Shown piece by piece: positions 19,365 to 33,441 of a DNA stretch of 64,000 nt. Origin of the DNA: Sphingomonas sp. HMP6. Its GTDB lineage: Bacteria; Pseudomonadota; Alphaproteobacteria; Sphingomonadales; Sphingomonadaceae. The translations under genes were made by a program, and so were the position numbers. The DNA is taken from NCBI RefSeq assembly GCF_013374095.1, contig NZ_AP022672.1, forward strand, positions 2,107,501 through 2,171,500, read 5' to 3'. Below the pieces are notes generated by a model. That model was not told where the DNA came from. It saw nothing but the letters and a program-made list of their open reading frames with translations, and made no database searches. Numbering within the stretch: the stretch's first letter is position 1; each line of letters opens with the position of its first letter.

Positions 19365-19379
19365 CTGACATGATGTCAG
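19365..19379. promoter_or_regulatory. Inverted repeat at the copper ATPase 5' end
   Basis: A perfect 7-base palindrome, CTGACAT-G-ATGTCAG, spans the first two in-frame ATGs of the ATPase ORF. If translation starts at the better-spaced ATG 19397 the repeat lies in the leader, where a metal-responsive repressor or activator could bind. No regulator gene is adjacent. Confidence 0.35.
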
Positions 19380-19396
19380 ACCCTATTGGAGTTGGC

Positions 19397-21757
<2,361 letters not shown>

Positions 21758-22072: not shown

Positions 22073-22090
22073 AAATGGTGCCGGAAGAGG
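22073..22090. repeat. attL, left copy of the tRNA-Leu 3' end
   Basis: AAATGGTGCCGGAAGAGG reproduces the end of the tRNA acceptor/T-arm (read on the minus strand: CCTCTTCCGGCACCA) with one C fewer than attR. No complete tRNA is present here, so it is the attachment-site copy and not a gene. Confidence 0.8.
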
Positions 22091-22150
22091 CACCAAAGGT
22101 GACCAACAAGTAACTGATTAAATTAGAAATTATCTATAGACCGCTCAAAA

Positions 22151-22172
22151 AGGCCCCCAAATAGGCCCCCAC
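22151..22172. repeat. Left integrase arm-type site (two AGGCCCCC units)
   Basis: Two AGGCCCCC units at a 12-base period, 61 bases inside attL. The same 22-base arrangement, with a single T-to-A difference, occurs at 33221-33242 just inside attR in the same orientation. Paired short repeats at both ends of an integrated element are typical integrase arm-binding sites. Confidence 0.6.
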
Positions 22173-22236
22173 CGCGAAAATTTATTTCGATTGTCGCGCC
22201 GCCGACGATCCGAAAATCGCTCTAGGTCGTAGTCGA

Positions 22237-22629
22237 TCATTCGACCTTTTTTGTCGAATTCCGAAGCGTCGTTCGCAAATGATGGTCAACGAAAAGTCCG
22301 TCGTGCGCCGGTCGTTTGTTTGCTTCCGAGATACGCGCCCACTCTGCTTCTAGCTGTGCTGGCGTTTTCGGTCGCGGTGGTCGCTTCGCCTTCTCGCGCG
22401 CGGCTTGGAGCTTGGCGAGGTGCAGCGGGGTGATATCGCTTTGGCGAAACCAGCAGGGGTTGCCGTGATCATCGGCCTCGAACGCAAATTCCCCGGCGCG
22501 GGCGCGCGTGTCGAGCTTGGCAGTGGTGGTGCCGATCAACGCGGCGGCGCGCTCGATGCTAAACCAATGCTCCGCACCGTCGAACCGGACCGGCGAAAGC
22601 TTGGCGGTCAGATTGCGCCGCCGCGTCAT
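22237..22629 (-). CDS. Small HTH-like protein coupled to the type IIG gene
   Basis: A 130-residue basic protein not assigned to a named family. Residues ~23-65 (WFSIERAAALIGTTTAKLDT, then a loop ending CWFRQSDI) resemble a MerR/excisionase-like winged helix. A Lys/Arg/Pro-rich helix follows (AKLQAAREKAKRPPRPKTPA). Its ATG overlaps the stop of the restriction-modification gene as ATGA (22626-22629), so the two are translated together. Possible roles are control of expression or an accessory subunit. It is the last gene of the cassette and points toward attL. Confidence 0.7.
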   Translation of the reverse strand: MTRRRNLTAKLSPVRFDGAEHWFSIERAAALIGTTTAKLDTRARAGEFAFEADDHGNPCWFRQSDITPLHLAKLQAAREKAKRPPRPKTPAQLEAEWARISEANKRPAHDGLFVDHHLRTTLRNSTKKVE

Positions 22630-25600
22630 CCCGCGACCACGGCGTCGGGTTGCCCGCCCATAAGCGTGTTGATGTAGGCAAGTGCGAGATCGCGGCTGCG
22701 ATATCGGCCATACGCTGCCATTTCTTGGCGCTCCACGATCGGGAAGGTGGAATAGATATAGCGGATATCGTCGCGGCTGGCGGCTGGGTTCGCCGGATCA
22801 TAGACGCCGTAGAGGATGAAATAGAGCGCATCGAGCTTGGCGCGCAAATGCAAGCGGCGGTCTTCGTCCCATACGAACGGCGGCAGCACGTCGCCCGCCG
22901 CGTCCACATAGCTCATATAGCGAGCGAAGTGGGCCATGTCGTGCGCGGTATAGGTCAGCTCCAGTACCGCCGCCTTCACGATATCGGCGGCGCTTTTGGG
23001 GCCGAACGGGCGGGCGTAGTCTGCGGGCGGGATGACGGGGAGTTGTTCGACGAGATACCAATTGAGATGCGTGCTTTGCGCCTTTTGCCTCGTCACATAA
23101 TCTAAAACCAAGGCGTTAAAATTCGCGAGCAAGAGGGCCTGATCCTCTACCGGGGCGTCACTCAACACCAAGGGTGCCGTATTACCAGCCGCGCGATTTG
23201 GGACAAATGATGCGATAAAGGTTCGGGCATCGGTTGCGCGAGCAATGTCCCGATAGGCAATCGTGGGGCCTTTCGCCGTGTCATTGGTCGCCACAATCCA
23301 AAATTGCGGCAAAGGCGAAAAGGTGTGATCGGCCTTCATGTCGGCGGTCACGTCGCCACTCAGCGCGGCATTGTGCAGGTTTTCTTCGTTCACCGTCACC
23401 GAAGCGGCACGATGATCAAATTGGTGAATCATTCGCCCGACGTACAGGGGCACCCACTCGCCATCCTTAGATTGCCAGCGGTTACCGCCGATCGGCCACG
23501 CACCTTCCTGTTCCTCCAATTCTAGCTTCGTTCGGAACAGGTGGCTGTCATTGGTCATATGAAACATAGTCGCGTACATTACCGGCCAAGCCTGAACCCG
23601 CGAAGGTCCGGATTTATCGACCAGTACTGGCAGTCGATCATAGATCGCGGTGGTCAGCGTCATGTCGCGCCGCGTTCGAAAAATCGGTGCGGTGCCGGTG
23701 TTCGGGTTGACGCGCGCAAAATCCGCCGCCGCGATAGGGAAGGCTTGATCGGGGTTTTTCCGTTCCTCCACCGACTGAAGGAAAAAGCCGCATTGTGCCG
23801 CCTGGAAAGTTCGATCGGGGCTGGCGATCATCGCGGCGAATTTGAAACGGCTGTCAACGTCCGGAAAGAAAGCCTCCAACGCGTATCGGGTGCGCCGGTT
23901 CTCGAAATCGAAAAGCGCTTTCAAGTGACCGCCGGTTGCCACCTTGCGGAAGAATTCGGACGCCGACAGGTCCGACGCGATGCCGCTCGGCGTCAACAGT
24001 CCTATCATCCCACCCGGTCGCACTAGCGAATGGGCACGTTCGACGAACAGGCTGTACAGGTTGATATCGCCCCGGCTTAGCAGGGGGTAATGGCCGGACT
24101 TGCGCGCGACGCGCAGCGTGTCGGCGGCGCGCCGATCCGCCTTTGCGAAATCGACGAACAGCGGATCGCCATCCGTCTTTAGCCTCAGAATCATCTTGGT
24201 ACGATCGGACGCTTTTTGTGATCGCGCGATTTCCGGTCGCCGTGCCGCAAACCATTCGACCTGTTGCAGCTTGATCCGGTCCCACGGCGGGTTGCCGACA
24301 ACGGCGTCGAAGCCCCCTTCCCGCCCCTTACTTGCCCAATTGCTCCACACCCCGGGAAAGGTGATTTGCCAGTTCAGGAAACGCTCTTCGCCGATCAGCG
24401 CGCGCGCCGCTGTCCAGATCGCGTGAAAGCGTTCGGCTTCGGCGGGCTTGGCGCGGTACGCTTCAGGGGCCTTTCGCCCGCGTGCAATTGGAATCGGTTC
24501 GCCGAATTGGCCGTCCAGCCATAGGCTGATCAGCGCCTTGTCCGCCCCCTTCAGGTCCAGCCAATCGAGCGCGTGCATGAAGCTGACAAAACCGTCCAGC
24601 GGCCCGGTTTGCGCTTCGACTTCATGCCACATATCGGCGGAGGTCTTGGCTTCGGCGATTTCGGCGTCGGTCAACGCTTCGATTCGTTGCATGACGGCGG
24701 CTTGGCGTTCGGCGTTGCGCAGCTCTTCCACGTAAAGCAATTCGCCACCCTTGCCCGCTTTGTCGATCGCATCGCGCACCCACAACCCGAACAGGCTATC
24801 CCCCGCCGCCAAGTGATGGTCGATAAAGCTGAGCGGAGCGCCCACCGTGAAGGTGTGCAGCCACAGTGACACCTTGGCGAGTTCGACCGCCATCGGGTTC
24901 TTGTCGGCCCCATAGACGCAGCGTTTGAGCACCATCCGCTTGACCAGCTGTGGGTCGTCCAATTGCTCTTCGCTAACGGTCCAGCGGGCATCCTCGGCAT
25001 TGTGGCGGATGGTCGCGCGGACCTTGCGGATTTCCTCGGCAACGGGCGATTCGTAATCCAGCCCAGCCGTGTCGCGGGCAAGCGTGCGCGCTTCGTCGAT
25101 CGCGTCCAGCGTGTGATTGGTCAGCCTATCGACAAGGCTAACGAGGAAATGGCCGGACCCCATTGCCGGGTCGCAGATTCGAAGCCGGGTGATTGCCTTG
25201 GCCGGATCGACCTTCTGCAATTGCGCGATGCGATAATCTTCGCTGTCCGCCGCCTTCAACCGACCTAATTCGGCTTTGAAGGCGGTCAGCGCGTCGGTGA
25301 TCAGCGGTTCGAGCGTTTCGTCCAGGATCAACAGCACGAGGTCGTCGGGCGTGTAATAGCTGCCCGAATTTTTCCGCGCGAAGATATTGGGCCGGATATC
25401 GACCGCGCCCGCTTCGTCGCGGATCAGCTCGAATTCCAGCAATCGCTCATAGATCGAACCGAGTTGCTGCACCGACAAATCGCGATAATTGATGTAGCGC
25501 CGCCGCCCACCGTGTTGCTCGAACGACAGAATATCGATCGCTTCGGCCATCACGTCATCGCCAAGCGCAATCGCCTTCAATAACGGCGTCTTTTCGGCGT

Positions 25601-26717
25601 TGAACAGCCCGCCATTGTACGGCGGCAAGCCGACCGATGCGTCGCCAAGGTCGATCATCTCGGCAAGATTGGCGAAGTGATTCCAAATATTCTTCGCGAC
25701 CGACGAAAACACGTCGCCTTCATCCTTGCGCCGCCCGATTTCCAGCCGCCGGTCGCGCAGCGCATAATCGTCGAAGCGCTTGTCACGCACCGGCAACAGG
25801 CCCCGGTCTTCGGCATACAGAACGAACAGCAATCGATAGAGCAGGATCAGCGTCGCTTGGCGCACGTCGTCCAGATCGGTCGCGGCGGGCGCGGCGCGGG
25901 CCACCGCCTTGCCCAGCGCCGGGTACAGCCGCGTAAACACAAGGTCCGACAAGCTTTTGGCGACCCGCTCCTCATAGAAAGCGGCTTCGCGGCGGGCTGT
26001 GTCGTGAAAGCTAGGGGCCTTCGCGCTCGCTCGCTCGAACGCCGTCCGCGAAAACATGGCGACGAACACCGCCAGCCAATGGTCGCGCTCCCCGTCGGTG
26101 ACGCCGGTATCGAGCAAATCGCCGTCCAGCCGCATGATGCGCGCAAGGTCCAGCTCCAGATAATCGTCGATCGTCGAGCGCGCGCCCGAAAAATACAGCC
26201 GCCACTTGCTGCCATTGGTCAAAATCCCCCAGCGCAGATCGCCATTGGTCAGATCGTCGATCCGGCGAAGGTAGCGCAGCAATTGGGTTGAAGGTGTGTC
26301 CTTTTCGGTCTTGCCTTCGGCCCGGTCGAGCGCGCGGCCCCACCGCTTGCTTTCGATGATCGCTGCGCCGAATTGGTAACGCAGCCACTCTTGCGGATGC
26401 CCGTTCGCATTGGCCTTCGCCGCCGCGTCGATGAACAGCAAGCCGTCCGGCACGTCCAGCCGCCCGGTGGCAGACAGGTTCTGTTGCGTGAGATATTCGG
26501 TCCAGCCCAGCAACCCGAGGATTGGCCAGATCAAATCGCCTTCGGTGGTCGCTTCGTTCGGTTTGCTGGCATGCGGGAAGCCCGACAGAATCTTGGCGAG
26601 CGCCGATCGGGTGGCGGCGGGATCGACCGCGCGATACTGCCCGGTGTCCGTTATGCCCTTAGACAAATAGTCTTGCGTAAACAGCGCACCGGACGTGAAC
26701 AGGCTAGGATCATTCAT
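22626..26717 (-). CDS. Type IIG restriction-modification enzyme (Eco57I-like fused nuclease-methylase)
   Basis: A 1363-residue single-chain restriction enzyme. Near the N-terminus a PD-(D/E)xK nuclease is suggested by VPDGLLF (Asp91) and AIIESKRW (Glu122, Lys124). A helical connector follows, then an N6-adenine methyltransferase with NSGSYYTPDDL (~450), motif I DPAMGSGHFL (~516-525) and catalytic motif IV NPPW (~809-812). The last ~450 residues are the likely target-recognition region (HMTNDSHLFRTKL, LNWYLVEQLPVIP). Such proteins both modify and cut at their recognition site. Length and N-terminal nuclease argue against BREX PglX. Its neighbours are a tyrosine recombinase 90 bases upstream and a small HTH-like gene coupled downstream. 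Confidence 0.88.
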   Translation of the reverse strand: MNDPSLFTSGALFTQDYLSKGITDTGQYRAVDPAATRSALAKILSGFPHASKPNEATTEGDLIWPILGLLGWTEYLTQQNLSATGRLDVPDGLLFIDAAAKANANGHPQEWLRYQFGAAIIESKRWGRALDRAEGKTEKDTPSTQLLRYLRRIDDLTNGDLRWGILTNGSKWRLYFSGARSTIDDYLELDLARIMRLDGDLLDTGVTDGERDHWLAVFVAMFSRTAFERASAKAPSFHDTARREAAFYEERVAKSLSDLVFTRLYPALGKAVARAAPAATDLDDVRQATLILLYRLLFVLYAEDRGLLPVRDKRFDDYALRDRRLEIGRRKDEGDVFSSVAKNIWNHFANLAEMIDLGDASVGLPPYNGGLFNAEKTPLLKAIALGDDVMAEAIDILSFEQHGGRRRYINYRDLSVQQLGSIYERLLEFELIRDEAGAVDIRPNIFARKNSGSYYTPDDLVLLILDETLEPLITDALTAFKAELGRLKAADSEDYRIAQLQKVDPAKAITRLRICDPAMGSGHFLVSLVDRLTNHTLDAIDEARTLARDTAGLDYESPVAEEIRKVRATIRHNAEDARWTVSEEQLDDPQLVKRMVLKRCVYGADKNPMAVELAKVSLWLHTFTVGAPLSFIDHHLAAGDSLFGLWVRDAIDKAGKGGELLYVEELRNAERQAAVMQRIEALTDAEIAEAKTSADMWHEVEAQTGPLDGFVSFMHALDWLDLKGADKALISLWLDGQFGEPIPIARGRKAPEAYRAKPAEAERFHAIWTAARALIGEERFLNWQITFPGVWSNWASKGREGGFDAVVGNPPWDRIKLQQVEWFAARRPEIARSQKASDRTKMILRLKTDGDPLFVDFAKADRRAADTLRVARKSGHYPLLSRGDINLYSLFVERAHSLVRPGGMIGLLTPSGIASDLSASEFFRKVATGGHLKALFDFENRRTRYALEAFFPDVDSRFKFAAMIASPDRTFQAAQCGFFLQSVEERKNPDQAFPIAAADFARVNPNTGTAPIFRTRRDMTLTTAIYDRLPVLVDKSGPSRVQAWPVMYATMFHMTNDSHLFRTKLELEEQEGAWPIGGNRWQSKDGEWVPLYVGRMIHQFDHRAASVTVNEENLHNAALSGDVTADMKADHTFSPLPQFWIVATNDTAKGPTIAYRDIARATDARTFIASFVPNRAAGNTAPLVLSDAPVEDQALLLANFNALVLDYVTRQKAQSTHLNWYLVEQLPVIPPADYARPFGPKSAADIVKAAVLELTYTAHDMAHFARYMSYVDAAGDVLPPFVWDEDRRLHLRAKLDALYFILYGVYDPANPAASRDDIRYIYSTFPIVERQEMAAYGRYRSRDLALAYINTLMGGQPDAVVAG

Positions 26718-26807
26718 ACGCGCACCAATGTTGACCGGTGATCGCCATGAATCCCCCCGATTTCAACGGACAGCTTAGCGGGGGCCATACCACGCGGGCA
26801 AGGTGGG

Positions 26808-27902
26808 TCAGGCCTTTCGCTGAATTGCCACGATCAGGGCGCGGACAGTCGGATCGTCCATAAGATCATTTGCTGAGTGCGACCTTCCCGCCGCGCGGAT
26901 CAGTTCGCCTTGTCGATGCGTCGGGACGGTGCCGTAGCTGGTAAAGGTGGTCAGCACGTCGGCATGGCCAAGATTTTGCGACCATGCCTTCATGGCCTCC
27001 GCTGATAGGTCGAGCGACATGCCGAAACGCACCAGCATGTCGCGAAAGCTATGCGGATTGAAGTAGGGCAACCCCGCCGCCGCGAACGCACGCCGGAATA
27101 TGTCGCGAATCGGCGATGTCGTGGTCCAGCCATTTCGGGATAGTTTGGTCGCAATAAAGCTCCCGCTTTCGTCCAGCCCCACGTGCGACGCCGGGAACAG
27201 CGGATCGCTGGCACTCCATAAATGATCGCGGGTCAGTTCCTCGCACCATGCCGCAAGGATCGCGAGCGCGTCGCCGCCGATGGGTTTGAAATAGGTTCGG
27301 AACGTCTTCGCGAATTTGGTCCGAACCGCTCGTGCATCCTGTTCGACATAGCCGCCCGCCAGATCGACGTGCCGGAGCTGGAACGATGAAAGCGCCCGTA
27401 CTCGTGCGCCGGTCAATGCGGTGAACGCCAATAGCGCCCGGTCGCGCCGTTGCAGATCGGTAGCGACCGGCATCGCGGACAAGACATGGTGAACCTGTTC
27501 CAGCGTCGGCACCGGCTTTTCGCGCACCGCCGTGGCGACCGCCACATCCTTGTGACTGAGGTTGAAATAATCGGCATCGGCATATTGGATATGCGACTTG
27601 AAACCGGGAACGTGCGCCAGCCAAAAGAAGAAAGCCCGCAAGTCGCGCATGGTGGAATTGAGCGTCGCCTTGCTCAGTCGTTCGCCAGTCCGCGCGTTGG
27701 CGGCATCGGCAAGCTTGGCCTTGAACGCCATCGCCTGTTCGCGGTGAAATCGTTTGAAGTCGCGCGCCTTGGTCGATTCCTCGAACCGCGCAAGGGACTT
27801 GGCGACGCCATCGATCGTGGCTTCGTCCTGTCGTTTTGCGTCCACCAGGTAACGGAAGTAATCGCGCTTGATCCGCTCATTTGCCGCGTTGTGTTTCATC
27901 AT
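26808..27902 (-). CDS. Tyrosine recombinase associated with the type IIG gene
   Basis: A 364-residue site-specific recombinase distinct from the island integrase. An N-terminal SAM-like core-binding domain (residues ~10-100) is followed by the catalytic domain. The complete residue set is visible: Arg in TGARVRAL, a Lys in RTKFAKTF, HSFR, LGH and the nucleophile Tyr in TSYGTV. Two ATGs at 27902 and 27899 are possible starts; the upstream gene originally ended in a stop overlapping them (see the separated 3' end). Its presence between regulatory genes and a restriction enzyme suggests a role in moving or rearranging the cassette, though DNA targets are unknown. Confidence 0.9.
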   Translation of the reverse strand: MMKHNAANERIKRDYFRYLVDAKRQDEATIDGVAKSLARFEESTKARDFKRFHREQAMAFKAKLADAANARTGERLSKATLNSTMRDLRAFFFWLAHVPGFKSHIQYADADYFNLSHKDVAVATAVREKPVPTLEQVHHVLSAMPVATDLQRRDRALLAFTALTGARVRALSSFQLRHVDLAGGYVEQDARAVRTKFAKTFRTYFKPIGGDALAILAAWCEELTRDHLWSASDPLFPASHVGLDESGSFIATKLSRNGWTTTSPIRDIFRRAFAAAGLPYFNPHSFRDMLVRFGMSLDLSAEAMKAWSQNLGHADVLTTFTSYGTVPTHRQGELIRAAGRSHSANDLMDDPTVRALIVAIQRKA

Positions 27903-27954
27903 GTCGTCGGTTGCCTTTCCACTTCACTGTTTAGGGAGGGCGGAGCGCTCCCCT
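27899..27954 (-). pseudogene. Detached 3' end of the Zn-finger/HTH gene, cut off by IS1380
   Basis: Read on the minus strand after deleting the insertion and one TTAA copy, this stretch continues the frame of the gene at 29596-30025. It adds KGSAPPSLNSEVERQPTT and a TGA that overlaps the ATGATG start of the recombinase. It is therefore the lost C-terminus of that gene and the original translational coupling site, now 1.6 kb away from its body. Confidence 0.8.
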
Positions 27955-27958
27955 TTAA

Positions 27959-27980
27959 CCTGATCTATTCACCGGCAGCG
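27959..27980. repeat. IS1380 left terminal inverted repeat
   Basis: 22 bases ending in CACCGGCAGCG, directly preceded by the TTAA target copy. It pairs with the right end at 29574-29595 with six mismatches. Confidence 0.75.
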
Positions 27981-28120
27981 TTTCTCAGCCGATGGGTCAG
28001 CGCAGGCGTCGTGTAGCCGCAGGCAGGGCGCATGGGTCCCAAGCGCCTGTCTCATCGCGGGTTCACAGTTTGGGGCGGAGTTGATGGGCGGGGTTCGTTT
28101 GGCGGCCACTGCCGCATCGA

Positions 28121-29473
28121 TCATGGTCCCGTGGTGCGCAAGTTGAGCGCGATGGATCGGAACAGCGCGGCATCGGGACAGGCGCTTGCGAAGGCGATGC
28201 GGATGCGGCTGGTGGTTTCGACGACGCGCGCGGCGACCTTGAGCAGCCGCAGGCGGATGGTCGCGAACTCGGCGGTGCGGAGCGTGGCGGTTGCGGGCAT
28301 AGCGTGCCGCACGGCCCACATCAGCCAGTAGGCGGCGGTGTGAAGGATGAGCCGCATCTGATTGGCGTTGGCCGAGCAGCAGGAGGTTCGGTCGCTCTTC
28401 AGCTGCGTTTTATGCAGCTTGATCAAGTTTTCCGCCTGGCCGCGGGCGCAGTAAAGCGTGTCATAGATCCGTTCAGCGCTGCCCTCGGCAAGCGAGGTGA
28501 CAACGAGGCGGATGTCGAGGCCGAGGCTGCTCGCCTCGATGCGAGCAACGACGCGACGTTCGGTATTCCCCCAGGTTTTCGCAGCGTAGCGCGTCTCTGC
28601 GTAACGCCTTAGTTCGACCAGTCCCTGCAATGCCCGGTCGGTCGCGCAGGCATCGCCTTCCCGAACGATGACGGGATCGGCGTGGAGCGTGCGGTTGCCG
28701 GGCAGCCCGAAGATGTAGTCGATTCCGTTCGCCTCGCACCAGGCCATCGGCTCTGGCCGACCGTAATGACCATCGCCGCGCAGCGTGATCCGGGTATCGG
28801 GCCAGTGGCGACGGATACGTCGCACGAGCCGGCGAACATGGCCGGCGACTTCCTTGCCCGACGGCGTTTTGCCGGTGCGCAGCAGCATCGCAACCGGCCG
28901 CCCGGTAGCGGTGTCGTAGACATGGATCGGCAGGAAGCAGCGCTCGCCGTAGTGGCCGTTCCAGAAAGAGAGCTGCTGCGCGCCGTGTACGACGTCGACG
29001 GTATCATCGATGTCGAGCGTCACCGCCGCAGGTGGCACGGGGTAGCTCGCGCAATAAAGGTCGACCAGCGTACCGGTCAGACGGATCAACTCGCGCGTAG
29101 TCGGCGCGTTTTCCCACCGGCTCATCGTCGGCTGGCTGGCCAGCCCGAACGGATCACCCGGCAGTTTGCCGAGCGCCAGCTTGAACCCTGGATCATGCCG
29201 CAGGGCGTCGAGATCATTGGCGTCTTCATACCCACACGAGATCGCGAGCATGCGGGCGCGCAAGATGTCGGCGACCCGGTGGATCACCCGACCCTGATCG
29301 CGCGGATCAGCGATGCAGGCGGCGAGCCGATCCGCGATCCCCAACCGCCGCTCGGCCTGTGCGAGCAGTAGCACGCCGCCGTCCGACGTCAGCCGACCGC
29401 CGTCGAACGCGGCGGTGATTTTTCGACCACGAATGGCTGGGAAGGTGAAGGAGAACCCACTATCGTCGGCCAT
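28121..29473 (-). CDS. IS1380-family DDE transposase
   Basis: A 450-residue transposase that looks intact. Catalytic-region signatures are DIDDTVDVVHGAQQ (first Asp), LRGDGHYGRPEPM (second Asp) and CARGQAENLIKLHKTQLKSD (the Glu-containing RGxxEn.IK pattern typical of IS1380). The start ATG 29473 lies 122 bases inside the right end. No frameshift is visible, so the element may still be active. Confidence 0.93.
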   Translation of the reverse strand: MADDSGFSFTFPAIRGRKITAAFDGGRLTSDGGVLLLAQAERRLGIADRLAACIADPRDQGRVIHRVADILRARMLAISCGYEDANDLDALRHDPGFKLALGKLPGDPFGLASQPTMSRWENAPTTRELIRLTGTLVDLYCASYPVPPAAVTLDIDDTVDVVHGAQQLSFWNGHYGERCFLPIHVYDTATGRPVAMLLRTGKTPSGKEVAGHVRRLVRRIRRHWPDTRITLRGDGHYGRPEPMAWCEANGIDYIFGLPGNRTLHADPVIVREGDACATDRALQGLVELRRYAETRYAAKTWGNTERRVVARIEASSLGLDIRLVVTSLAEGSAERIYDTLYCARGQAENLIKLHKTQLKSDRTSCCSANANQMRLILHTAAYWLMWAVRHAMPATATLRTAEFATIRLRLLKVAARVVETTSRIRIAFASACPDAALFRSIALNLRTTGP

Positions 29474-29569
29474 GGCGGTCGTGGCACTTTCTGTCTGGAG
29501 CAGAGGGATGGCGTAAGCACCCTTTCTCTACTCCAAACCAAAGACTTAGACCACGATCGCCACCACCGA

Positions 29570-30025
29570 TTATCGCTCCCGATGAATAATCCGGGTTAAG
29601 CGTGGCGTTACCTCCAGAATCCGAATGTCGATCGCGGGCATGATCCGGTGCAGATCGGCACGGCGGGCGCGGCGGTGCATCATCCCCCCGCACGTCTCAC
29701 ACAGCGCGCGGAGGTTGCCGCTGGCGGTAGTAAGCGGGACATAATCGACCATTCCCAGCGCGGGCGCGCAAGGTACGCGGCATCGGAAACAGTATATCAA
29801 ACCTGACCCGCACGGTCGCTTACGATCAGCATTTCTCTTGCTTAGGAACGCGCGGACAGCGGCCCCTTGGAACAGCATCGGATTGGCCTTATCGATCGGC
29901 TTAAGGCCAGCGCGCTGCCATTCGCGGACTGTGTTGGCGTGAACCTTCAGGCACGCCGACAATTCCGGCACGCTGTAGCTACGGTGGAGCTTCACGCGAT
30001 AAGGGTTTGCACGGCGGGTCGCCAT
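29570..30025 (-). CDS. HTH and zinc-finger protein, C-terminus replaced by IS1380
   Basis: A small regulator-like protein. I use ATG 30025 (151 residues), which has AAGGG seven bases upstream; a TTG at 30040 would overlap the preceding gene. Residues ~15-45 (YSVPELSACLKVHANTVREW) are a helix-turn-helix. Two Cys pairs, CFRC and CETC, about 45 residues apart form a probable zinc ribbon. The IS insertion replaces the natural last 18 residues with TRIIHRER from the IS terminal repeat, so the protein may still be made but no longer ends at the recombinase start. Function unknown; its operon position suggests a regulator or DNA-binding partner of the recombinase. Confidence 0.7.
   Translation of the reverse strand: MATRRANPYRVKLHRSYSVPELSACLKVHANTVREWQRAGLKPIDKANPMLFQGAAVRAFLSKRNADRKRPCGSGLIYCFRCRVPCAPALGMVDYVPLTTASGNLRALCETCGGMMHRRARRADLHRIMPAIDIRILEVTPRLTRIIHRER
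29574..29595. repeat. IS1380 right terminal inverted repeat
   Basis: The partner of 27959-27980, followed at once by the second TTAA copy (29596-29599). Its sequence now supplies the last seven codons and stop of the interrupted Zn-finger gene. Confidence 0.75.
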
Positions 30026-30036
30026 CGCGGTGCCCT

Positions 30037-30204
30037 TCAACCCTGCCCGTCGATCAGTCGGCGGATTGACTCGGCTTTAACCAGAGTCCGGCGACCTAGC
30101 TTGAACGCTTCGAGCTTGCCCTCCGCAATAAGCGCGTAAATCGACGTTCGCCCAAGGCTAAGCGCTTTTGCGGTGTCGTTAATTGAGACTGCCAAAGGTT
30201 CCAT
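30037..30204 (-). CDS. Excisionase/AlpA-like HTH protein (55 residues)
   Basis: A short gene: ATG 30204, with GGAG eight bases before it, to TGA 30037, encoding 55 residues. The sequence SINDTAKALSLGRTSIYALI followed by AEGKLEAFKLGRRTLVKAES is the compact winged helix of DNA-binding excisionases (AlpA/HTH_17 type, with the GRT..Y.LI.EG.L....GRR pattern). These proteins set the direction of tyrosine-recombinase reactions or switch on integrase genes. It begins the cassette that leads to the recombinase and type IIG gene; its stop lies 12 bases before the next ATG. Confidence 0.85.
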   Translation of the reverse strand: MEPLAVSINDTAKALSLGRTSIYALIAEGKLEAFKLGRRTLVKAESIRRLIDGQG

Positions 30205-30266
30205 GATTGTCGCTCCATTGCCCGCATGAACACCAGCGGACGCGACGGATCATTTCTGCCATGCGA

Positions 30267-30289
30267 AGTTTCGCGGCTAGTTTCGCGGC
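30267..30289. promoter_or_regulatory. Tandem AGTTTCGCGGC repeats upstream of the excisionase-like gene
   Basis: The 11-mer AGTTTCGCGGC occurs twice, at 30267-30277 and 30279-30289 (12-base period), 63-85 bases upstream of the excisionase-like start. A further palindrome ATTTCG-G-CGAAAT follows at 30303-30315. Short direct repeats of this kind are typical binding sites of excisionase-type proteins. Confidence 0.4.
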
Positions 30290-30314
30290 GATTGCGCGGC
30301 AGATTTCGGCGAAA

Positions 30315-31232
30315 TTACTTTGGCCCTGTTTTTCTTGGTCCCATCAAATCTCGCACCCGGTCGCGCGAAATGTGATTGCTGGGATATGCGGCCCTCACCA
30401 GTGTTAGCAATTCAGCCTCGCTCAACGACTCGCGAACTTTGGATTTTTTCTCCCACCAGTCCTTCAGCGACGCTTCCGCTAACGCCAACTTAACTTGCAG
30501 TGGCGCGGCATCGGCGGGGGGCGTCTGAAAGCGTGGCGGCACCATGGCGTTGAGCGATTCGTGGTGGAAATACACATTTGTGAGGGTGATCGAGCGTATT
30601 CCATCGGGCGATCGACCCCGCCCGGAAAACTGACCGATCTCCCAATCTTGCGCGCTCGACCCGCCCGATGTGAAGCCTTCCCAAAACCAGACAGGGATAT
30701 CCCATTCGCGTCGCTCCCAAATACATTGCACTTCATATCGGTCGCCTTTGAACGCCTCAGCGCGGACCGCGCGAGCGATTAGGAAACCGAGCCGAGCTTG
30801 TTGAATTAGCGCCATTCCGGCTTTCGCAGGATTTACTCCCGCTTCATTATAAGCAAATTGTCGGGCGGCTTTAGCCGAGACCCAATTCGCATTTCCGGCA
30901 ACTGACAAGGAGCGTGCCACGACACCGCGACGCTCGAATGGCAGCATCTCCAGTACCTCCGACAAGCCGAATGTCACTCCGAACGCTCGCCAATGCGCCG
31001 AGTGGTCGATCCACGTCGCAAAGTCGCCCGATACCCAATCTTGTTCGAGCGCCTCGTGCCCATCCGCCCACCAAAAATCTTGCGGTACTAGCGCATCGTC
31101 ATGCCGATCATCATCGACCATCAATAAGCGGGCGCGAGATTTGATTAGCCCCGCTCGAAGCCGCCCGCAAAGCGCCATGCTTGATCCTGCTAGTTCAAGC
31201 GCCTGCGCCGCACTGACCCAATGTTCCGTCAT
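30315..31232 (-). CDS. Hypothetical protein with internal duplication
   Basis: A 305-residue protein I cannot place in a named family. Two copies of a ~100-residue unit are visible. The first starts at HWVSAAQALEL (residue 4) and ends DFWWADGHEALEQDWVSGDF. The second starts NWVSAKAARQF (~116) and ends with VWFWEGFTSGG...DWEIGQF. Each has WVSA, an Arg-rich helix and a Trp-rich end, as if an ancient tandem duplication. The C-terminus (LVRAAYPSNHISRDRVRDLM) looks like a small DNA-binding helix pair. It lies 110 bases upstream of the excisionase-like gene on the same strand. Confidence 0.6.
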   Translation of the reverse strand: MTEHWVSAAQALELAGSSMALCGRLRAGLIKSRARLLMVDDDRHDDALVPQDFWWADGHEALEQDWVSGDFATWIDHSAHWRAFGVTFGLSEVLEMLPFERRGVVARSLSVAGNANWVSAKAARQFAYNEAGVNPAKAGMALIQQARLGFLIARAVRAEAFKGDRYEVQCIWERREWDIPVWFWEGFTSGGSSAQDWEIGQFSGRGRSPDGIRSITLTNVYFHHESLNAMVPPRFQTPPADAAPLQVKLALAEASLKDWWEKKSKVRESLSEAELLTLVRAAYPSNHISRDRVRDLMGPRKTGPK

Positions 31233-31416
31233 CCAGTTAAGTAACCAGCGCGGGTCACTGACCGCAAGCGCGTCCTACGGAAGGCGGGCAAATCGCGTGT
31301 CAGGGAAAGCGATCACAAACGTCCGGGAATGGTGGGAAACGGTCCGGCGGCTTTCCGAAATTCGATCACCTTTAGCGGACGTTGCCGACGTCATCGATCA
31401 CAGGTAAATCGCGCGG

Positions 31417-31854
31417 ATGCGCTGGAAAAACACCCCGGAGGACGAGGCGACGAGGCAGGCCATGGGGAAGGCTCTGGCGTTAGTATTTATACCGGCAGGC
31501 CTCATAATCTTTGGCCTGATCTATATAGTATCGCCGCGACGCGAGCCGACTTCTCAAGCGTGGGCAAATGGCACCTATGTAAACGCCTGTTGTCCGCCTG
31601 TAGTGCTGCAAAATGGACTTTTAGTCTCGGGGAATAATAAGGCTCATTACAGAGTCTATTACAATGATACAGGCTACTTTATATCTGTGGATCGCAAAAT
31701 AGGCGTGAAGGACTCTGAGATTACCTTGTCCGGATACGCAGATTATGTGCCATTCAACAACAATAGCGAAGCACGACCAGCCATTCATAACGCAGAGGCA
31801 TTGCATCTTTTTGGGGTCAGCGATTTCACCGACTACAGGTTTGTGAAAAAATAA
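31417..31854 (+). CDS. Hypothetical membrane-anchored protein, AT-rich
   Basis: A 145-residue protein with one N-terminal transmembrane helix (ALALVFIPAGLIIFGLIYIV) and a predicted outward C-terminal domain (ISVDRKIGVKDSEITLSGYA). No family recognised. Base composition is clearly more AT-rich than all neighbours, which points to a different origin. It is the only plus-strand gene of the island and is divergent from the duplicated-domain gene across a 184-base gap. Confidence 0.6.
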   Translation: MRWKNTPEDEATRQAMGKALALVFIPAGLIIFGLIYIVSPRREPTSQAWANGTYVNACCPPVVLQNGLLVSGNNKAHYRVYYNDTGYFISVDRKIGVKDSEITLSGYADYVPFNNNSEARPAIHNAEALHLFGVSDFTDYRFVKK

Positions 31855-31944
31855 GGCAATCTAAAACGTCCGCAATCGGGTGCAAATTAGATCATTCTGA
31901 GCGGCGAAAACTGGGCGGCAGCCGCCGGTCCGCTTTCCCAACCA

Positions 31945-33180
31945 CTACCGGACATTCCCGCCGTTTGCGCGATCCGGAAGGCGTAGAACAGTCGCGCCGT
32001 CTCGCAATGTGTCTAGATGATCGCTCCACCATTGCGCCATCTCAACCCGTTCCGCCCAGTGCGCGCCCCGGTGATACGCAGCGCGGACTTGATTGGCCTC
32101 GGCATGTGACAACGCGCGTTCGATCGTGTCGGGATTCCACTTGCCGCTTTCATTCAAGAGCGTCGATGCGGTGGAGCGGAAGCCGTGCGCAGTCATCACG
32201 TCCGCGCCAAACCCCATCCGCCGCAACGCTTGGTTGATCGCGTTTTCGCACATTGGTTTGAGCGGCGACCCGAGCTTCGGGAATACGTATTTACTGTTCG
32301 CTGAAAGTGCGGCGGCTTCACGCAATATAGTGACGGCTTGGCGCGACAACGGCACGCGGTGCGGCTGGCGTTGCTTCATCCGCGCCGCCGGGATCGTCCA
32401 GACCGCCGCGTCGAAGTCGATTTCGCTCCACTCGGCTTGCCGCACTTCGCCGGGACGCTGGAACACGTTGGCGGTGAAGCGCATCGCCAGCGTTGTGATC
32501 GGCTGGCCGGAATAATCAATTATCGCGCGCAGCAACCCACCGAATGCGATCGGATCAATAATGGCGGCATGGTGCTTTGCAACTGGCGAGACTAGCGCAC
32601 CCTGAAGCGGCTGCGCGGGGTCGCTGGTAGCGCGGGCGGTGGCCACCGCGTAACGAAACACGCGGCTGGAAAAGGATCGTAACCGCCGCGCCGTCTCGCG
32701 CTGTCCCGCGCGCTCCGATTTGCGCAGGACCGCCAGCAATTCGTGCGGTGTGATCTCAGCAATGGGGCGCGTGCCCAGCGACGGGGAAAGCTTCGACAAC
32801 AGCCACCGCGTTTTCGCGACCGTCACTTCGGCCCGCCCTTCGGCCTCCAGCTTGTCGATATACTCGTCGGCAATTGCGGCAAAGGTGTTCGCGGTTGCGA
32901 CCCGTTGCGCGATTCGCGCCTCTCGCTTTGCCAGCGCCGGGTCGCTGCCCGCTTGCGCCGCTTTGCGTGCTTCGTCGCGTTTCGTCCGCGCGTCCTTCAA
33001 ACTGACTTCGGGATAGGACCCTAGCGCAAGCTTCTTTTCCTTGCCGCCGATCCGGTACTTCAGCCGCCAGAGCTTTGACCCGGTGGTGGTTACGAGAAGG
33101 TAGAGGCCCTTTTCATCGGCCAGCTTGCGGTCGCTTTCCCCTGCTTTCACCAGCCGGATCGCCGTGTCGGTCAACGCCAT
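31945..33180 (-). CDS. P4-type tyrosine integrase of the island
   Basis: A 411-residue integrase. The N-terminus is the arm-binding DUF4102-type domain (RKLADEKGLYLLVTTTGSKL, LGSYPEVSLKDAR). A core-binding domain follows, then the catalytic domain with FQRPGEVRQAEW (Arg), the MKQRQPHRVPLS strand (Lys), AHGFRST (HxxR), ALSHAE (His) and AAYHRG (Tyr). Its position next to tRNA-Leu, reading away from it, is standard for elements that insert at tRNA 3' ends. Confidence 0.95.
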   Translation of the reverse strand: MALTDTAIRLVKAGESDRKLADEKGLYLLVTTTGSKLWRLKYRIGGKEKKLALGSYPEVSLKDARTKRDEARKAAQAGSDPALAKREARIAQRVATANTFAAIADEYIDKLEAEGRAEVTVAKTRWLLSKLSPSLGTRPIAEITPHELLAVLRKSERAGQRETARRLRSFSSRVFRYAVATARATSDPAQPLQGALVSPVAKHHAAIIDPIAFGGLLRAIIDYSGQPITTLAMRFTANVFQRPGEVRQAEWSEIDFDAAVWTIPAARMKQRQPHRVPLSRQAVTILREAAALSANSKYVFPKLGSPLKPMCENAINQALRRMGFGADVMTAHGFRSTASTLLNESGKWNPDTIERALSHAEANQVRAAYHRGAHWAERVEMAQWWSDHLDTLRDGATVLRLPDRANGGNVR

Positions 33181-33220
33181 GTTCGTCCCTTTCGCATCGG
33201 TGCGAATGGCCGCTGGCGAA

Positions 33221-33242
33221 AGGCCCCCAAAAAGGCCCCCAC
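33221..33242. repeat. Right integrase arm-type site (two AGGCCCCC units)
   Basis: Matches the left copy at 22151-22172 except one base; the two units are 12 bases apart. It lies between the integrase start and attR, where arm sites are expected. Confidence 0.6.
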
Positions 33243-33351
33243 TTTTCCGCGATTGTCGGCGAACGCCAGCAACCGGGAGCGGTCAATGCGAGGGATAAAC
33301 TAGTGGATTTCTGCGGTTTTTTCAACCTTTCGCGGGCATCGACGAATAGGG

Positions 33352-33370
33352 AAATGGTGCCCGGAAGAGG
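33352..33370. repeat. attR, tRNA-Leu 3' end
   Basis: AAATGGTGCCCGGAAGAGG covers the acceptor-stem end, encoded CCA and three bases beyond. It is the intact partner of attL at 22073-22090. Confidence 0.8.
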
Positions 33371-33441
33371 ACTCGAACCTCCACGCCCTTGCGAGCGCCA
33401 GCACCTGAAGCTGGTGCGTCTACCAATTCCGCCATCCGGGC
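33355..33441 (-). tRNA. tRNA-Leu(CAG)
   Basis: An 87-base gene including an encoded CCA. The acceptor stem pairs GCCCGGA with TCCGGGC. The anticodon stem CCAGC/GCTGG closes the loop TTCAGGT with anticodon CAG. A long variable arm (CGCTCGCAAGGGCG) marks a class II tRNA, and GGTTCGAGTCC forms the T arm. It decodes CTG. The genomic island is inserted at its 3' end without damaging it. Confidence 0.95.

Follow-up and report, generated by a model that had tools for sequence, protein, structure and literature searches.

What does a tyrosine recombinase do beside a restriction enzyme? The question is raised by the window analysed here, the whole stretch of 64,000 nucleotides from Sphingomonas sp. 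HMP6 (contig NZ_AP022672.1), where a recombinase gene precedes that of a large type IIG restriction enzyme. The original prediction read the two genes and their small neighbours as a possible self-mobile defence cassette, or as one whose expression might be switched by recombination. We find it very probable that the window instead holds a member of a family of small islands inserted at tRNA genes, which share a module of genes at one end and have a slot taken mostly by restriction-modification (RM) genes. Sequence comparison establishes the module, the linkage of two of its genes (ZNR and TYR), the varying RM cargo, the boundaries formed by tRNA ends and arm-type repeats, and an insertion sequence (IS) of the IS1380 family inside ZNR. 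The idea of a self-mobile defence cassette was right in kind, the element being a tRNA island with an integrase, an excisionase (Xis)-like gene, repeats and restriction cargo; its mobility is read from the sequence alone.

An island with two recombinases at a tRNA-Leu gene

The island extends over ~22073-33371 (~11.3 kb) and carries its own arm-type integrase. Nine window proteins were typed with Pfam, NCBIfam and PADLOC. The module, labelled in other loci (handles beginning with L) by hidden Markov models (HMMs), has the order INT-P305-XIS-ZNR-TYR, and in the window it is followed by the restriction gene as cargo:

31945-33180, minus strand: INT, the island integrase, an arm-binding tyrosine recombinase of 411 aa (Arm-DNA-bind_3, Phage_int_M, Phage_integrase)
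30315-31232, minus strand: P305, a module protein with no Pfam match
30037-30204, minus strand: XIS, a 55-aa excisionase-like helix-turn-helix (HTH) protein (HTH_17; TIGR01764, excise)
29570-30040, minus strand: ZNR, an HTH and Zn-ribbon protein, a 156-aa open reading frame (ORF) in whose C-terminal end the IS lies (two CxxC motifs; HTH_17 match below cut-off)
26808-27902, minus strand: TYR, the second tyrosine recombinase of the module, 364 aa (Phage_integrase, 24.9 bits against a cut-off of 27.1)
22626-26717, minus strand: cargo, type IIG restriction enzyme/methyltransferase of 1363 aa (Eco57I/IIG; IESKRW, DPAMGSG, NPPW)

The TYR residues R167, K196, H284xxR287, H313 and Y323 do not vary across 19 aligned sequences, bearing out the predicted recombinase with all catalytic residues; its predicted distinctness from the island integrase also holds, the latter being the Arm-DNA-bind_3 protein at 31945-33180. 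No arm domain was found in TYR; both simple and arm-binding recombinases figure in the accessible part of PMC8138268. The best NCBIfam matches of TYR are the XerD, XerA and XerC models, all far below cut-off, and a TYR profile had no match among PDB sequences at 1e-5. In ZNR, whose first ATG lies near 30025, the four Zn-ribbon cysteines (Cys79, 82, 109 and 112 in L042 numbering) are invariant in 42 sequences. Structure models of ZNR and P305 (predicted local distance difference test, pLDDT, 88 and 87) matched nothing in the PDB at E below 0.001; the ZNR HTH weakly resembles 6hn7 (E 0.07) in a structure search.

The boundaries are marked by the following features:

33355-33441, minus strand: tRNA-Leu(CAG), the insertion target, with its 3' end as the right island boundary
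22073-22092, no strand assigned: imperfect copy of the tRNA-Leu 3' end, identified by eye, as the other boundary
33219-33242, minus strand: arm-type repeat with paired GGGGGCC, beside the integrase
22149-22172, minus strand: the arm-type repeat again, at the other end of the island, with 23 of 24 nt identical to the first copy

As in a tRNA-targeting island, an arm-type tyrosine integrase adjoins the tRNA 3' end, and the far boundary has both an arm repeat and, just outside it, the imperfect tRNA-end copy. Perfect tRNA-end copies are found in other islands (e.g. TCGAGTCCTCTTCTGG), and the same layout is clearer in L039, where TTCGAGTCCTCTTCTGGGCACCATTT stands at both ends. The neighbourhood of tRNA-Leu, an NDUFA9-like gene and UppP recurs in 9 of the 10 genus regions fetched; TYR, ZNR and the enzyme lie beside the tRNA in none of the ten, and their left neighbours differ, so that they offer no clean empty site. 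In the genus relatives L157 and L159 the same tRNA-Leu holds other INT homologues.

Two further genes were seen at the locus. Immediately left of the island, a large plus-strand gene (19370-21757) looks by eye like a heavy-metal P-type ATPase and had no tblastn match in the ten genus regions. Inside the island, a 145-aa ORF (31417-31854) without a Pfam match above its cut-off lies on the plus strand, opposite all module genes.

RM genes in the slot after the second recombinase

A scan of GTDB genomes yielded 428 relatives, the best 80 of which were analysed as loci, and the tally comprised 99 unique loci. Islands were delimited by arm or tRNA repeats, which gave 27; for L054, L075, L081, L096, L127, L119, L121 and L124 the right arm alone was seen, with a tRNA-like end after the arm in L054. 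More than 1.5 kb follows TYR in 23 of the 27 and 0.3 kb or less in four. RM cargo, recognised by its genes, is present in 19 of the 23 loaded islands (L091 has a methyltransferase alone, L074 is split in ORF calls, and L054 and part of the L063 cargo were typed via DNA homology):

Type I cargo: L037, L041, L042, L081
Type III-like cargo: L043, L055, L087
ISP cargo: L068, L083, L100
IIG/MmeI-like cargo: L074, L075, L093 and the window
Eco57I methylase with ResIII: L039, L054, L063
C5 cargo: L067
D12 cargo: L091

L039 and L055 additionally carry GmrSD. Across 66 cargo proteins there were 10 matches to N6_Mtase, 9 to ResIII and 8 to Eco57I; for 66 length-matched flanking proteins, no RM family occurs among the 25 listed of 86, and TIR_2 was found in two. 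A draw of 396 genomes from the order gave, in a hand tally, RM genes within ~8 kb after TYR at 17 of 28 assessable TYR places (32 places in total). Outside Sphingomonadales, where 28 loci were listed, six of ten chosen genes after TYR encode methyltransferases (L102, L104, L117, L118, L122, L128) and the others different proteins (L105, L106, L108, L116); L118 (Devosia) and L108 are nevertheless alphaproteobacterial.

The slot is empty in L090, L119, L121 and L124, with the arm within 0.3 kb of TYR. A description of these as four empty islands was rejected, as three of them carry other genes upstream of TYR: an ISP-type enzyme of 946 aa with a partial ISP_C match between INT and TYR (L090, 7139-9979), a primase-like protein before ZNR (L121), and, in a module from Syntrophus, an LRR-Roc-COR protein of 1154 aa encoded before ZNR (L124, 5026-8490). 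L119 is the sole one with P305-XIS-ZNR-TYR and nothing after; an IS110-type transposase takes its left end.

We propose a model whereby islands of this family would insert at tRNA genes and carry ~3-12 kb of cargo. The end module would comprise the arm-type INT, P305, the excisionase-like XIS, the HTH/Zn-ribbon protein ZNR and the second recombinase TYR; INT, presumably with XIS, would move the island; the slot after TYR would most often accept an RM operon; and in some lineages the cargo would lie behind a promoter-like sequence that directly follows the TYR stop.

Several observations weigh against reading the window as a member of such a family. No RM gene was recognised in four of the 23 loaded islands, among them L069 (AMP-binding and flavin enzymes) and L073 (sugar-nucleotide enzymes), the other two being L096 and L127; in the order draw, 11 of the 28 TYR places were not typed as RM, among them G103, for which there was no Pfam scan. 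The cargo does not always adjoin TYR, as L090 shows, which also has no P305, XIS or ZNR. In L157, INT and XIS occupy the same tRNA without TYR and are followed by genes for 402 and 511 aa, and in L048 INT stands directly before an IIG gene. Neither INT nor an arm repeat was found in L196. Distant relatives differ in layout, several in Acidobacteria having INT opposed to TYR. The promoter-like motif is present in only 12 of 96 loci and was fitted to these loci. Finally, island mobility and cargo expression are predicted from sequence, no excision, transfer or expression having been seen.

TYR is linked to ZNR and not to the IIG enzyme

The original prediction regarded the recombinase as dedicated to the IIG gene, which it would move or switch, and raised the question whether the small genes are conserved with the pair. 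In 199 genomes of the family (cut-offs 1e-60 for TYR and 1e-10 for ZNR), TYR was found at 12 places and ZNR at 12, all 12 paired and none apart at these thresholds, and the pair in the window is separated by the IS1380 element alone. Of the 99 unique loci, 89 have ZNR immediately before TYR; the ten without it are the window, with the IS between, and L075, L090, L096, L098, L099, L101, L103, L109 and L111, where in L075, L096 and L098 an over-long TYR call may hide the neighbour and a diverged ZNR would lie outside the search. XIS was counted in 54 of the 99 loci and INT in 47, and 49 have P305 upstream of TYR; these counts apply within set distance limits, and many contigs end inside the locus.

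The enzyme behaves differently. It occurs in 12 of the 199 family genomes, together with TYR in the window genome only, and in 18 of the 396 order genomes, 30 of which have TYR (the IIG cut-off was 1e-100 in one draw and 1e-150 in the other). Both draws together contain 22 genomes with the enzyme, and in two of them TYR adjoins it: the window and G435 (L196), where P305-XIS-ZNR-TYR-IIG is uninterrupted and TYR-IIG is collinear with the window at 77.5% nucleotide identity. In G343 both genes are present, far apart. The collinear copy in L196 favours a dedicated recombinase, but 20 of the 22 enzyme genomes have no adjacent TYR, TYR is found beside many other RM types, and no flanking inverted repeats were found, so that this reading, largely refuted by the counts, is now highly improbable. 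Of the small genes, ZNR is kept with TYR, not with the enzyme.

Nor did a switch by recombination find support. No inverted repeat flanks the cassette among the 25 longest of 38 pairs listed, and the repeat test described below was negative in both orientations; an inversion switch, and with it phase-variable RM, was rejected.

Cargo turnover and the border behind TYR

Among 32 RM-typed loci, 69 of the 85 pairs whose TYR proteins are at least 70% identical carry cargo of different classes, as do 9 of the 12 pairs at least 80% identical, the pairs not being independent of one another; when non-RM and empty slots are counted as classes, 110 of 127 pairs differ, L090 being misclassed in that count. 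Examples are L059 (ISP) and L060 (IIG), with TYR 88% identical, and L041 (type I) and L078 (ISP), at 87%.

One explanation of this turnover is that TYR and ZNR form a cargo-capture recombinase that inserts or removes whole RM operons just after its own gene, behind a module promoter, in the manner of an integron. Indeed, the cargo starts right after TYR in most islands, and in nine different-cargo pairs with at least 78% nucleotide identity over TYR, homology ends at +33/34 after the TYR stop in five (L041/L078, L041/L083, L078/L081, L081/L083, L059/L060), just behind a shared TTGGCG-N16-GCTAAGC or its L059/L060 equivalent. We take this sequence to resemble an alphaproteobacterial promoter, and the window has a counterpart:

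26774-26801, minus strand: promoter-like TTGCCC-N16-GCTAAG at the module/cargo border, recognised by its letters

In its strict form the pattern stands behind TYR at 12 of 96 loci, compared with 1 of 839 other genes; the associated p of 9e-12 is optimistic, as the pattern was read off the same loci. L090, with an empty slot, and L093, with an IIG gene in it, likewise differ by an insertion of ~3.5 kb after TYR: the two match up to about +12 on the left and again from L090 +10, which corresponds to L093 +3499, on the right. The five fitting pairs, however, derive from two module lineages; the other four, all with L074, break inside TYR at -90 to -94; RM cargo lies upstream of TYR in L090; and homologous exchange between modules would give a similar picture. 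Moreover, no direct or inverted repeat shared by the two cargo ends was detected when the TYR-stop region was compared with the final 260 bp ahead of the far arm (means of 7.70 for cognate and 7.94 for mismatched ends; permutation p 0.87 for direct and 0.69 for inverted repeats). Recombination-site copies at both cargo ends, as in an integron-like platform, were rejected on this test, cognate repeats being no better than those of mismatched islands. On balance cargo capture is rather unlikely. The broader proposition, that these widespread two-recombinase islands are a class of dedicated RM delivery vehicles in which TYR and ZNR load or exchange RM operons behind the module promoter, would go further, and we consider it improbable.

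The role of ZNR and TYR

The position and conservation of TYR suggest that it works on the element itself. L119 and a Ruegeria conchae plasmid speak mildly against a cargo-specific role, having ZNR-TYR without recognised RM cargo; the plasmid is annotated with the same set (arm-type integrase, two hypotheticals, AlpA regulator, HTH protein, integrase), and no RM gene is listed in the 9 kb after the module, in a gene table that is incomplete. As the likeliest of the readings, ZNR and TYR may help the excision or integration of the island, as the several recombinases of GInt islands do, a role favoured because GInts and strand-biased circularizing integrative elements (SEs) indicate, in the portions of PMC5385486 and PMC10214605 available, that extra recombinases can serve these steps. 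We place it slightly below an even chance, because three of the four islands with an empty slot carry genes upstream of TYR.

The pair could also have been retained for a different task, for example to resolve multimeric forms of the excised circle or to repress genes of the island or of its cargo. The Xer-type matches of TYR, the DNA-binding appearance of ZNR and XIS upstream of the cargo and the existence of INT islands without TYR (L048, L157) are in keeping with this; against it stands the invariance of the active site, and a purely regulatory TYR is disfavoured because catalysis is probably needed. We regard such a different task as unlikely.

An IS1380 insertion in ZNR

The original prediction listed five minus-strand genes in a row; the ORFs exist, but they are not five adjacent genes, as an IS lies between ZNR and TYR:

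27959-29595, minus strand: insertion of the IS1380 family, whose exact ends were placed by eye using the target duplication

Its 450-aa transposase gene occupies 28121-29473, and the target duplication TTAA is found at 27955-27958 and 29596-29599. The 3.6 Mb genome holds 18 near-identical copies of the 1.6 kb element, that of the window included, along with one 77% relative at C1:1790939; these copies represent a recent burst. A matching 4-bp YTAR duplication was seen by eye at all ten copies inspected, and the matching duplication marks the window copy (TTAA) as a simple insertion. It sits in the 3' end of ZNR, supplies roughly the final 8 codons of the 156-aa ORF and has probably impaired ZNR in this genome. 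The island may therefore have become immobile, with its IIG gene still intact.

The type IIG enzyme and the 130-aa gene

By eye, the 1363-aa protein qualifies as a type IIG enzyme, with methyltransferase and nuclease motifs in one protein. Type IIG RM gives phage defence in Pseudomonas islands, according to the part of PMC12595487 available. In L048, the gene for an enzyme 71% identical to that of the window comes immediately after an INT homologue; this island lacks XIS-ZNR-TYR and is a simpler carrier of the same cargo. In the window, a small gene follows that of the enzyme:

22237-22629, minus strand: HTH-like ORF of 130 aa overlapping the IIG stop, without a Pfam match and with a 25-bit PADLOC match to mad1 (HTH)

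This small HTH gene had been considered as a possible conserved partner, which the comparison contradicts: tblastn over the loci gave nothing beyond a 28% match at E=0.2 in L063, and there is no homologue in L196, the other island with the same enzyme. Two known defence systems suggested by profile matches were dropped. For DISARM (a DrmMI match), no drmA/B/C/D or drmE was found among the nine proteins scanned; for MADS, MAD1 scored 19.7 bits against a curated cut-off of 80, and the sole other mad match was a weak one to mad2 (25 bits) in the IIG protein.

The module across bacteria

Among the best 80 of the 428 relatives, hosts are Alphaproteobacteria and also Acidobacteria, Desulfobulbaceae, Nitrosomonas, Nitrospinota and others. 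TYR also matched three plasmid records and five viral contigs; a phage origin of TYR was rejected after 0 matches at 1e-10 in 50,697 phage records. In L077, L099, L101, L106, L110, L112, L116 and L133, the INT homologue comes after TYR and is encoded on the other strand. ZNR is longer (186-236 aa), with no separate XIS called, in L038, L040, L058, L060, L066 and L200, possibly as an XIS-ZNR fusion or a start-codon artefact. Outside Alphaproteobacteria, an extra gene of 851-893 aa directly precedes ZNR in L114, L121, L123, L129, L131 and L133, with a Pfam RepB_primase match in L121 and L123 and none in the other four; a replication gene in this position would point to a satellite-like element.

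Comparison with known systems

Among related elements, tRNA defence islands with a single integrase are already known, and so are GInts and SEs. No description of this module or of its RM preference was found in the literature covered, most subscription papers lying outside coverage. Small islands mostly filled with RM genes of many types are a concrete candidate for an RM vehicle; the XIS-ZNR-TYR signature makes the family searchable, and the position after TYR is a place to seek new RM-like defence genes.

P4-type islands have an Arm-DNA-bind_3 integrase beside a tRNA gene and an AlpA/Xis-like partner, and the window island shares both features. Set against them, no replication gene was recognised among the nine window proteins scanned, while a distant module lineage has RepB_primase.

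GInt islands (ginABCD), as far as the portion of PMC5385486 at hand describes them, are similar in having a recombinase module at one end with several recombinase-type genes, a short other end, cargo that starts by the stop codon of the last module gene, and RM genes among the cargo. They encode three integrase-type proteins and one helix-loop-helix (HLH) protein; the window island, in contrast, has one arm-type integrase, one further recombinase, an Xis-like protein, an HTH/Zn-ribbon protein, P305 and a tRNA 3'-end target. Only TYR and INT match Phage_integrase among the nine window proteins, and they are not adjacent, so the island would not be counted as a GInt (a GinD-like protein was not searched for).

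The SEs (intA-tfp-intB-srap) share the presence of two catalytic tyrosine recombinases; tfp-srap is placed only in Gammaproteobacteria in the excerpt of PMC10214605, and, unlike the SEs described there, the window island has a tRNA target and an Xis-like gene.

A further parallel is offered by the defence mobile genetic elements (MGEs) at tRNA-Leu and tRNA-Phe of Escherichia coli, which, in the part of PMC12458937 available, also use the tRNA 3' end, direct repeats and an integrase with an AlpA-like excisionase, and whose defence cargo differs between elements. Those elements have HUH Rep proteins and large multi-system cargo; members of the present family instead pair a second recombinase with a Zn-ribbon protein and mostly carry a single RM operon.

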